A stretch of DNA of 26,273 nt from a virus. How positions within the stretch are numbered: the stretch's first letter is position 1; every line of letters starts with the position of its first letter. The notes beneath the pieces are model-generated. The model saw nothing but the letters and a program-made list of their open reading frames with translations, made no database searches and had not been told where the DNA came from. Positions 7,892 to 26,273 of the stretch are shown one piece after another. The position numbers and the translations under genes were made by a program. Location: positions 1 to 26,273 of IMG/VR virus record IMGVR_UViG_3300021425_000163. One strand, written 5' to 3'.

Positions 7892-10170
7892 TATTGGTTA
7901 CTCAAGTCTGCTATAGTAATTTCAACTTCTTCTTTGCCACTAGCTTTTTGCAATCTAGCAATATACTCTTCATTCCAGTTATACATTGCTTCTTGTAGCT
8001 GACGCGATTGTTCTTGTTTCATTTCGCGGCTTTGACGCAACTCGTTTTGTGCGCCTTCAAAAAACTTAGCAATAAATTCTGGCACTTCATCTATATTGCC
8101 TACACCCTGACCAATTAATCTAAATACGTTATTATTACTTAACAGCTTTCTTGCTTTAGCCGCCTGCTCTGGGGGCATCTTATATTCTTCTAAGAACCTT
8201 CTCCTGTTAAGAATTGGTCTTTGCGCCTGCTCTTCCAAACCTTTGACATACTCATCCTGCACAGCAGGATAATCTATGCTTGGATTTGCTCTTTCATCTA
8301 CAGGTTGCAATGAGCCATCTGGCATTCTTATCATTACAGCGTAAGTTGGTGTACGTTTTTTTGCCATAGTTGCAGTCTCAGTATCAGATATTAATATAAT
8401 ATCTTCAGGTGCAAACCCATCACCGTACTTAGCCACCAACTCTTTGTGTAAACTTTCTCTAATCCAAGAGGCATCTTTTGTTTTGCCAAGACCATAAAAA
8501 TCTTCTGGAGCGTGTCGTAAAAAACCAAACTCACCAACTTTATAGCTATTTTGCATTTTCTTAACAGCGTACTCAGATGCTCTGTCTGCTTCAAACCCTA
8601 GTAAATAATTATCTTCAGTCAGAGTTTTTAGGTCAGCAATCATTTCGTCTCTATTAATGTCGCTTGGGGTAAACTGTGTACCAAATCCAAATACACCTGT
8701 TTCAAACGCATCGTCAATTATTTTAGCATACCCCTCATATCTTTCAGTCTTATCAACTGAGAGTTCTGCTTTGCGAGCCTCTACTAAAGCTTGGCGTGTG
8801 CTGTTGGGTGGAAATGCAATATCTTTTGCTCTTTGTAACGCTTCATCAAAATCATAGAACTCCATATTTCTTTGGATAGCGTCTGCATATACTAAATCTT
8901 GCCCACTAAAGGCATCTGGCATCCCTTGTAAGGCATTTAATTCTGTAATAGTTTGTGCCGCCACAATAACTGCATCAGGCTCGTTAGAACGCAAATCTGT
9001 GAGTATTTCAGTCTTCATTGTTTTTGGCATAGCACGAACTTGATTAACGTAATCTATACGCTCATCCATACGCATTTCTATGTTTTCTGAAAACTGTGTG
9101 CGTTGTTCGTTATAGTGGTTATCAATATCTGTGTCTGTGATTACATCTGAAGTAACTGCAGGTTCATCTGTGAATCTTGCTGATACGTTTGCTATACCGT
9201 TTGCTTTGCGTATTTCAGCATCAGACATCTCAACAGTTTTATTATACTCAGTTACATACTGATTTACTTGTGTTTCAAGTTGTTTGCGTAGCGTTTCGTT
9301 TTGTTGTGCATCTAACTCACTCAAAGGAGTTGTGCGTAATTCTGCTAACACGCCATTAGCTATCTTAATAATATCTTCTGGCTTTTGGTCTGAATCAAGC
9401 AGTCTTTGGAACTGCCCTTTTTGTGTTGCTATAGCTACAGAGTCTTCAAGTTGCTTGCGTCTTGATGCTATTTCTTTAGGCGTTAATAACCCTACAGCAC
9501 TGTCCAAATCGCTATTAACTTTTTCTAATGCTTCTTGTAATGAGTCTGTTTCGCCTGTGAAGGCAAGGTTACTTGCTTGGTCAACGCTAGAGTTGAATCC
9601 ATCTAGCAAATTACCTTTAACTTGTGCGTCTACAATCCTTTGTTCTTCTTTTTGTACGCGATTAAAATATGTTTTTTGTGACCTATTAGCATAAGCATCT
9701 ACATCAAGGGTTGCCCACTCAGGTAAAGCCTCACGAATACCTTTAAGACCTTCATTAACAATCTTATTAAAGTTTGCAGTATCATTTGGGTACTGGGCTT
9801 CAGCATCAGCAAATATTCTGTCTACTCTTGGATACGTTCCATTAATATAAGCTTTCATAACAGTAGTGTTATATTGTGAATCGCCAATATTTCCACTCAT
9901 CCTCAACTCAGGTGCTACGCCCTTTTCTGCTATTTCTGCACCTTCTGTCATGCCTTCGATTCTAGCTTCTTCTCTTGTTTTTCTTTGTTCCTGTGCCTTT
10001 TCTTCTCGTTCTTTTTCTGCACGTTCAGTAAGTTCTTTACGAACCATCGTGTCAGTAATGCCGCCCAATGTGTCCCCCAATCCTGCTAAGGCTCGCATAC
10101 GAATCTCACCCGAACGGTCTAATGCGCCCGCAGTAAATGTGCCATATCGTTTGATTGGTTTTATAGCCAT
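7891..10170 (-). CDS. Internal virion protein (gp15-like position), helical
   Basis: This 759-residue protein starts 5 bases after the stop of the 135-residue gene and overlaps the next gene by one base. It begins MAIKPIKRYGTFTAGALDRS and is then strongly helical and charged. Residues about 45-75 form a likely coiled coil rich in E, K and R (TERAEKEREEKAQEQRKTREE), and a second Glu/Gln/Arg-rich stretch lies near the C-terminus. No signal peptide or membrane segment is seen. Size and place between a small hydrophobic-N-terminus protein and a very large internal protein match the gp14-gp15-gp16 order of T7-like virions. The role is inferred as part of the ejected core. Confidence 0.65.
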   Translation of the reverse strand: MAIKPIKRYGTFTAGALDRSGEIRMRALAGLGDTLGGITDTMVRKELTERAEKEREEKAQEQRKTREEARIEGMTEGAEIAEKGVAPELRMSGNIGDSQYNTTVMKAYINGTYPRVDRIFADAEAQYPNDTANFNKIVNEGLKGIREALPEWATLDVDAYANRSQKTYFNRVQKEEQRIVDAQVKGNLLDGFNSSVDQASNLAFTGETDSLQEALEKVNSDLDSAVGLLTPKEIASRRKQLEDSVAIATQKGQFQRLLDSDQKPEDIIKIANGVLAELRTTPLSELDAQQNETLRKQLETQVNQYVTEYNKTVEMSDAEIRKANGIANVSARFTDEPAVTSDVITDTDIDNHYNEQRTQFSENIEMRMDERIDYVNQVRAMPKTMKTEILTDLRSNEPDAVIVAAQTITELNALQGMPDAFSGQDLVYADAIQRNMEFYDFDEALQRAKDIAFPPNSTRQALVEARKAELSVDKTERYEGYAKIIDDAFETGVFGFGTQFTPSDINRDEMIADLKTLTEDNYLLGFEADRASEYAVKKMQNSYKVGEFGFLRHAPEDFYGLGKTKDASWIRESLHKELVAKYGDGFAPEDIILISDTETATMAKKRTPTYAVMIRMPDGSLQPVDERANPSIDYPAVQDEYVKGLEEQAQRPILNRRRFLEEYKMPPEQAAKARKLLSNNNVFRLIGQGVGNIDEVPEFIAKFFEGAQNELRQSREMKQEQSRQLQEAMYNWNEEYIARLQKASGKEEVEITIADLSNQ

Positions 10171-25541: not shown

Positions 25542-25748
25542 ATGGATATTAACAAATCGCTAGACCATTTTATGAAAGAACACTGCATGACACAGGCAGA
25601 TATAGCTAGAGAGGGTGGATTATCTCCTGCTACTGTTAGTTTGATTAGGAATAACCACAGAGAACCAAGCTGTGCCACACTAATCGCACTGTCAGACCTG
25701 TTCCAAGTGCCAGTCAGTGAGTTCATCAGGGCAGGTGAACATGGATAG
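25542..25748 (+). CDS. Cro/CI-type HTH transcriptional regulator
   Basis: This is a 68-residue protein, essentially one XRE-type domain. MTQADIAREGGLSPATVSLI (16-35) is the helix-turn-helix, with Gln18, Ala21 and Ser32 in typical places; EPSCATLIALSDLFQVPVSEF (41-61) forms the following helices. AAGGAG 5 bases before the ATG supports the start. It is as short as Cro proteins and has no LexA-like cleavage or oligomer domain, so Cro-like control of the divergent promoters is the best guess. A CI-like partner is not in the window. Its stop lies 8 bases inside the replication gene, so the two are coupled. Confidence 0.85.
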   Translation: MDINKSLDHFMKEHCMTQADIAREGGLSPATVSLIRNNHREPSCATLIALSDLFQVPVSEFIRAGEHG

Positions 25749-26273
25749 AGGTTACTACGCAATCATCCCTGCTAACGTCAGATACGATGAGAGTCTAACA
25801 CCTAACGCCAAACTTTTATATGGTGAGATAACTGCACTGTGTAATGAGAAAGGATATTGTTGGGCAACTAACAATTACTTTGCAGAACTGTACAAGGTGA
25901 GCAAGGTATCTATCAGCAAGTGGATAGGCAATCTAAAAGACTCAGGCTATATAACTGTAGACATGGAGCAGGATAGGGCTACTAAACAAATCTTAAATAG
26001 GTATATAAGAATTGTTAAAGACCCTATTAAAGAAAAGTTAAATACCCCACAAAGAAAAGTTAATGGGGGTATTAAAGAAAAGTTTAAGGATAATACTACA
26101 GTTAATACTACAGTTAATATTACAAGTAATATAGACCATTTTGATTCATTCTGGTCTGTGTATCCTAGAAAGGTAGGCAAGGCTCAAGCTAGAAAAGCAT
26201 GGGATAAAATCAAACCTACTGATGATGTTGTTAAACAAATAGCTGAGAACATCGCACTCAGGCTAAAGCATGG
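25741..26273 (+). CDS. O-like replication initiation protein, partial
   Basis: An open frame runs from the ATG at 25741 to the window end without a stop, 177 residues. Residues 1-70 (GYYAIIPANVRYDESLTPNA, then KLLYGEITALCNEKGYCWAT, YKVSKVSISKWIGNLKDSGY) form the winged-helix head common in phage replication proteins of the DnaD/O type (HTH_36-like). A Lys/Asn/Thr-rich linker (about 90-130) follows, then HFDSFWSVYPRKVGKAQARK and AWDKIKP, the W..YP.K..K..A...W segment typical of the C-terminal part of such proteins. It would bind the origin and load the helicase. The linker DNA itself carries origin-like repeats. It lies behind the Cro-like gene as O does in lambdoid order. Confidence 0.82.
   Translation, partial: MDRGYYAIIPANVRYDESLTPNAKLLYGEITALCNEKGYCWATNNYFAELYKVSKVSISKWIGNLKDSGYITVDMEQDRATKQILNRYIRIVKDPIKEKLNTPQRKVNGGIKEKFKDNTTVNTTVNITSNIDHFDSFWSVYPRKVGKAQARKAWDKIKPTDDVVKQIAENIALRLKH
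26025..26133. other. Candidate replication origin inside the O-like gene
   Basis: Three copies of AAAGAAAAGTT(T)AA begin at 26029, 26051 and 26074 (22-23 bases apart). AATACCCC (26041-26048) and GGGGTATT (26066-26073) form a perfect 8-base inverted repeat between them. Directly after come three 12-mers at 26092, 26104 and 26116: AATACTACAGTT twice and AATATTACAAGT once, all AT-rich. Iterons next to an AT-rich unwinding element inside the initiator gene is the lambda arrangement. Confidence 0.55.

Follow-up and report, generated by a model that had tools for sequence, protein, structure and literature searches.

A putative phage replication origin embedded in its initiator gene, with iteron bases that co-vary with the initiator recognition helix

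The window analyzed here is a stretch of 26,273 bases from a podovirus-like phage (IMG/VR virus record). Its large terminase is closest to that of Burkholderia phage BcepC6B, and the relatives include Pelagibacter phage Hodr as well as Methylophilales phage MEP301. The leftward genes serve structural and recombination functions, and include those for a RecE-like exonuclease and a Sak-like annealing protein. At approximately 25.5 kb the direction of transcription flips, and a small Cro-like gene is followed by a replication initiator gene that leaves the window (Table 1). The two genes overlap by eight bases at the initiator start, and this arrangement suggests that they are probably co-translated through translational coupling. 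The whole initiator gene encodes 235 amino acids in a relative (L002) that is 99% identical to the window at the protein level. The minimum of the cumulative GC skew falls at position 25593, only 0.4 kb from the repeats described below, but GC skew does not discriminate between origin positions because this minimum follows the switch in gene direction, with which it coincides.

Table 1. Coordinates of genes, domains and repeat elements at the initiator locus
Feature	Position	Strand	Basis or remark
Small Cro/CI-type HTH gene, 68 aa	25542..25748	+	ORF; HTH_3 E=1.3e-9
Replication initiator gene, ATG 25741, cut by window end	25741..26273	+	PF13730 HTH_36 E=9.8e-13; phrog_270 replication initiation protein E=2.2e-32
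Winged helix-turn-helix DNA-binding domain, residues 19-71	25795..25953	+	Pfam; AF2 model
Recognition helix start VSKVSISKW, residues 53-61	25897..25923	+	V56, S59 and K60 co-vary with iteron bases
Weak phased iteron-like site CTAAACAAATCTTAAA	25982..25997	+	phase scan peak at -45
Weak phased iteron-like site TATAAGAATTGTTAAA, within wing codons	26004..26019	+	phase scan peak at -23
Iteron 1, TTAAAG-AAAA-GTTAAA, CCC before (26022-26024)	26027..26042	+	
Iteron 2, ACAAAG-AAAA-GTTAAT, different frame (QRKV), CCCC before (26045-26048)	26049..26064	+	
8-base perfect dyad AATACCCC (26041-26048) / GGGGTATT (26066-26073)	26041..26073	.	not conserved in family
Iteron 3, TTAAAG-AAAA-GTTTAA, GGGGG before (26065-26069)	26072..26087	+	
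AT-rich 12-mer ladder, presumed strand-opening, encodes N-T-T-V repeats	26088..26135	+	12-mers span 26091-26126

The initiator carries an HTH_36 winged helix near its N-terminus, as do all 72 relatives scanned, and the phrog_270 profile spans residues 3-171, which is the whole of the available protein. An AF2 model of the N-domain (pLDDT 91.5) exhibits a recognition helix and a two-strand wing, and the linker that follows is predicted to be disordered (pLDDT about 23-29 in the full model). A fold search placed the RepA_N initiators 5kbj (DNA-bound), 4pql and 4pt7 near the top, along with DnaD, none of them at E<=0.001; the best match is weak (E about 5e-3, TM about 0.6), with comparable scores for other winged helices. 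Searching the PDB with the initiator sequence gave no useful match. The original prediction had called this gene O-like, which is apt for its layout and mechanism but not for its family membership. Specifically, no Pfam match to Phage_rep_O (lambda O) is found for the window protein at E<=0.1, and an hhalign profile comparison with lambda O likewise yields no match. RepA_N (PF06970) also gives no Pfam match at E<=0.1.

Among the 72 relatives, the C-terminal domain matches Phg_2220_C in eight, DUF6017 in three and DnaB_2 in one, whereas most have no Pfam family there. These domains are exchanged among relatives (L002-L281) right past the AT-rich ladder, and therefore the putative origin marks a recombination boundary. 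Members of the initiator family are present in contigs assigned to Bacillota, Spirochaetota, Bacteroidota, Alphaproteobacteria and Patescibacteria, and also in marine podoviruses. We rejected an apparent fusion of the initiator domain to an enzyme in Enterococcus phage SEsuP-1 (L289, record positions 8951-9808) as a likely misannotation: the gene is annotated as the methylase subunit of a type II restriction enzyme, yet it resides in the usual replication cluster and adjoins RusA. Also set aside was r1t orf11, which its sequence identifies as a different initiator type.

In the linker-coding portion of the gene, AAAGAAAAGTT is present at positions 26029, 26051 and 26074, with spacings of 22 and 23 bases, which confirms the three near-identical 13-14-mers at about 22-base spacing on which the original prediction was founded. 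Two features had been overlooked. Each repeat is a 16-bp imperfect palindrome with 6-4-6 arms and an AAAA center, and two weak upstream copies (25982 and 26004), residing in wing codons, keep the 22/23 phase of the strong iterons. Iteron 2 is degenerate, as is the third 12-mer of the ladder. The longer identity claimed earlier, TATTAAAGAAAAGTT at 26025 and 26070 (45 bases apart), is indeed present, but as a sign of constraint beyond peptide coding it is weak on its own because the peptide itself repeats. When the linker codons were redrawn synonymously at the phage's own codon usage, an exact 15-base repeat arose in 2.2% of draws (P=0.022), whereas the number of repeat pairs in the window, 22, compares with a mean of 3.3 under the same procedure (P=0.0005, 2,000 draws). 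We consider the window sequence alone to be moderate evidence; it is the comparison with the family that makes the case.

For this comparison, 80 homologues were collected by peptide patterns, and 20 representatives were used for a codon test on 138 pairs with less than 70% amino-acid identity in the N-domain. Loci recovered by the DNA iteron pattern were left out. Codon identity is 85% in the iterons and 86% in the ladder, versus 44% and 53%, respectively, that these amino acids alone would predict; the excess has bootstrap intervals of 0.33-0.48 and 0.24-0.41, both far from zero. The N-domain that adjoins the iterons is synonymously saturated between homologues, with identical residues using identical codons in 40% of cases over the same pairs. 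Alignment of homologous genes had been put forward as a check on the origin, and it shows that the repeats are kept as DNA, with iteron and ladder codon identity far above that of the flanking domain. By blastn, 107 bp of the region also match Lactococcus phages at 79-83% identity.

The array is also confined to this gene. An 18-base iteron pattern matches 55 stretches in 2.9 million viral contigs, and all but one are inside HTH_36 initiator genes (54/55); the sole match outside (L128) is a single isolated site. A search of the loci for a second origin or for decoy arrays found none above chance (80 iteron-like sites versus 68 expected). There is no clear array in homologues L182 and L098, and its presence is doubtful in L094, L137, L189, L190, L195, L198 and L199; some of these array-poor homologues represent partial loci or derive from Brachyspira. 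The Brachyspira homologues L189, L195 and L199 have Arg60 and a linker without a clear iteron array, and their origin may be located elsewhere.

A second sample comprised 92 representatives (<85% identity) from a genome scan and further viral scans, and the 83 with clean arrays were kept. Spacings of 22 and 23 bases place neighboring iterons in different reading frames, such that at least two frames are used among the iterons of one origin in 50 of the 83. In the window, the encoded peptide is IKEK for iterons 1 and 3 but QRKV for iteron 2. The left arm of iteron 2 is ACAAAG (TTTAAG in other phages) because TTAAAG would give an in-frame TAA stop at this place. With a spacing of 24, the copies share one frame and are nearly identical (L038, L142, L151). 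In a few relatives the frame closes early. The initiator ORF ends inside the iterons in L176 (136 aa) and L181 (129 aa), with iterons and ladder running past the stop, and the 115-aa frame of L077/L280 terminates within the iteron array or immediately past it, with the ladder extending beyond. These early stops may represent a split gene, a frameshift or an assembly error.

Past the window iterons, TAATACTACAGT occurs at 26091 and 26103 and is followed at 26115 by an imperfect third copy, TAATATTACAAG; the three AT-rich 12-mers noted originally are thus all present. This ladder lies within the least stable 0.1% of stretches. The motif AAT(AAT/ACT/ATT)ACA, at 12- or 15-base spacing, is found no more than 75 nt past the last iteron in 70 of the 83 origins, where its density is 26 per kb downstream of the iterons versus 0.02 per kb in the remaining gene. 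The ladder stays nearly constant across origins, even those with wholly different iterons. Two longer relatives have one of their most AT-rich 60-mers directly 3′ of the initiator N-domain, which is the expected place of the ladder. One could propose, tentatively and against the odds as we judge them, that the AAT-AAT-ACA ladder is a sequence-specific opening element recognized by a conserved factor (initiator or host) and not merely easily melted DNA. If so, its role would be comparable to that of the DnaA-trio element of bacterial origins.

The 8-base dyad of the original prediction is perfect in the window but is not a family trait, since only 9 of the 83 origins carry an 8-bp GC-containing dyad, and we rejected a functional hairpin on this basis. 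The CCCC/GGGG dyad is instead a by-product of the GC block, which differs between units (CCC or GGG). Ahead of the iterons, CCC is found in 132 units and GGG in 69, and the block switches between alleles, with L016-L018 and L020-L024 swapped relative to the window.

The most specific evidence comes from a comparison of iterons with the protein proposed to bind them. Iterons were extracted without using the helix, and the 16-mer register was chosen by a score that rewards palindromy, such that palindromy is in part a product of this choice whereas co-variation is not imposed. Among 1,264 residue-by-base tests, the top 20 all fall within recognition-helix residues 54-60, and the strongest are at symmetric base pairs. 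Specifically, V56 pairs with bases 14 and 3, K60 with bases 5 and 12, and then S59 with bases 16 and 1. The positions in each pair sum to 17, as expected for a dimer on a palindrome. Val or Ile at residue 56 accompanies A3 in 24 of 26 cases, and Lys or Arg accompanies G3 in 22 of 22. Residue 60 is Arg in 24 of the 83 origins, and base 5 is C in 22 of these 24 versus 2 of the other 59 (Fisher p=1e-15). When the helix columns were excluded from tree building, 15 of the 17 substitutions at residue 60 shared their branch with the base change, when 2.1 would be expected and the maximum in 20,000 draws was 7. Similarly, the Arg codon that overlies the weak upstream site at 26004 is CGA in 6/6 Arg60 phages versus 6/26 others (p=0.001), and other Arg codons do not differ between Arg60 phages and the rest. 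A synonymous codon choice over a weak site that tracks residue 60 supports the residue-base correspondence.

The apparent correspondence (V/I56 with A3, K/R56 with G3, R60 with C5) appears to be new across phyla, and the literature searched, which was mainly open-access, contains no report of one for HTH_36 phage initiators. The co-variation strongly implies that the initiator binds the iterons. When considered with the codon constraint, the restriction to this gene and the use of different frames, it indicates that each iteron, as an imperfect palindrome, is probably bound by a dimer of the protein that the same gene encodes. Codon identity and helix co-variation therefore support the core of the original prediction, namely an iteron origin with a strand-opening region that lies within an initiator gene and is conserved at the DNA level.

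The anatomy of the locus, the DNA-level constraint on iterons and ladder, the restriction of the array to one gene and the two-fold-symmetric co-variation are best explained, with a probability that we place near 90%, by a phage replication origin within the initiator gene. This origin would be embedded where the gene encodes a disordered linker. The N-terminal winged helix would bind each 16-bp iteron as a dimer, with one recognition helix per half-site, and residue 56 appears to read bases 3 and 14 while residue 60 appears to read bases 5 and 12. On phased sites at intervals of 22-24 bp, of which three are strong and about two weak, a nucleoprotein array would form and put the adjoining AT ladder under strain until it opens, and the C-terminal domain, swapped between relatives, would bring in the helicase-loading machinery. 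Binding itself, dimer stoichiometry, ladder opening and helicase recruitment are the steps that we infer.

Alternatively, the array might serve as an intragenic operator through which the initiator or the Cro-like protein encoded upstream represses transcription, with replication starting elsewhere. Operators are likewise phased palindromes, and a Cro-like gene is located directly upstream and overlaps the initiator start. However, the iteron bases track the recognition helix of the initiator itself, the sites are located some 280 bp into the gene and are usually followed by an AT ladder, and no comparable array is found elsewhere in the loci, all of which makes an operator quite unlikely. The DNA identity across hosts could also be attributed to a small cassette that was recently transferred horizontally, and not to selection on binding sites, given that the blastn similarity to Lactococcus phages (79-83% identity) centers on 107 bp of the repeat region and that relatives exchange C-terminal domains past the linker. 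Recombination may also contribute to this identity, but with an adjoining N-domain that is synonymously saturated and iterons that follow the recognition helix in its changes along many branches, transfer is a very improbable explanation. Finally, that the repeats are a protein feature only, a tandem-repeat linker with similar codons from recent duplication, fits the repeated IKEK peptide and the P of 0.022 for the exact 15-mer but is barely credible when the same DNA motif encodes different peptides in two frames, synonymous identity persists where the neighboring domain is saturated, and the linker is predicted to be disordered.

If the residue-base correspondence of the proposed origin is true, then for any phage that carries an initiator of this type, sequence alone would suffice to locate the origin and to predict its specificity group. 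How phage origins shift specificity yet stay functional would thereby become directly testable. Moreover, the putative binding sites within one stretch of DNA fall in two different reading frames, and this dual-frame coding, together with the correspondence, makes the locus more useful than a routine annotation.

Systems in which the origin resides inside the initiator gene are already known, and RepA_N plasmid initiators are the closest analogue of the one described here. In pSK41 and pTZ2162, an N-terminal winged helix binds Rep boxes in the center of the rep gene, and a linker joins it to a separate C-terminal domain; pSK41 Rep binds boxes inside its own gene, whose ori-encoded middle is the linker (PMC5703833). 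RepA_N iterons converge on a poly-A tract (PMC7145576). In contrast, the window initiator is phage-borne, lacks a PF06970 match and matches the fold weakly. Origins within the initiator gene have also been described for staphylococcal phage 80alpha (ORF20) and for SPP1 (G38P) (PMC5499656).

The lambda origin is likewise located within its initiator gene, with four A-tract-centered imperfect inverted repeats at 20-24 bp spacing that are bound by dimeric O, and an adjoining AT-rich region; two iterons and this region are enough for unwinding (PMC7466680). The lambda iterons have another sequence, and no direct profile match connects the window protein with lambda O, although both match phrog_678, 345 and 391. 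Among lactococcal P335-type initiators (BK5-T ORF49, phi31.1 Orf269, ul36.1 ORF235 and that of 63301), those of BK5-T and 63301 belong to the same PHROG 270 as the window protein. BK5-T has an annotated repeat_region at the same place, but with a different iteron sequence. The repeat regions of phi31.1, ul36.1 and 63301 resemble that of the window at the blastn level, whereas the initiator proteins of 63301 and phi31.1 have diverged (about 32% identity).

In the PLE satellite of Vibrio cholerae, a RepA_N DNA-binding domain and its origin co-vary as a module (PMC8263062), similar to the pattern proposed here, although the PLE origin is in a noncoding region and its initiator belongs to the RepA_N family. 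An origin-targeting nuclease exploits this RepA_N/origin specificity (PMC8263062). By analogy, nucleases of this kind could be one reason why iteron specificity has diversified among the phages that carry the origin proposed here.
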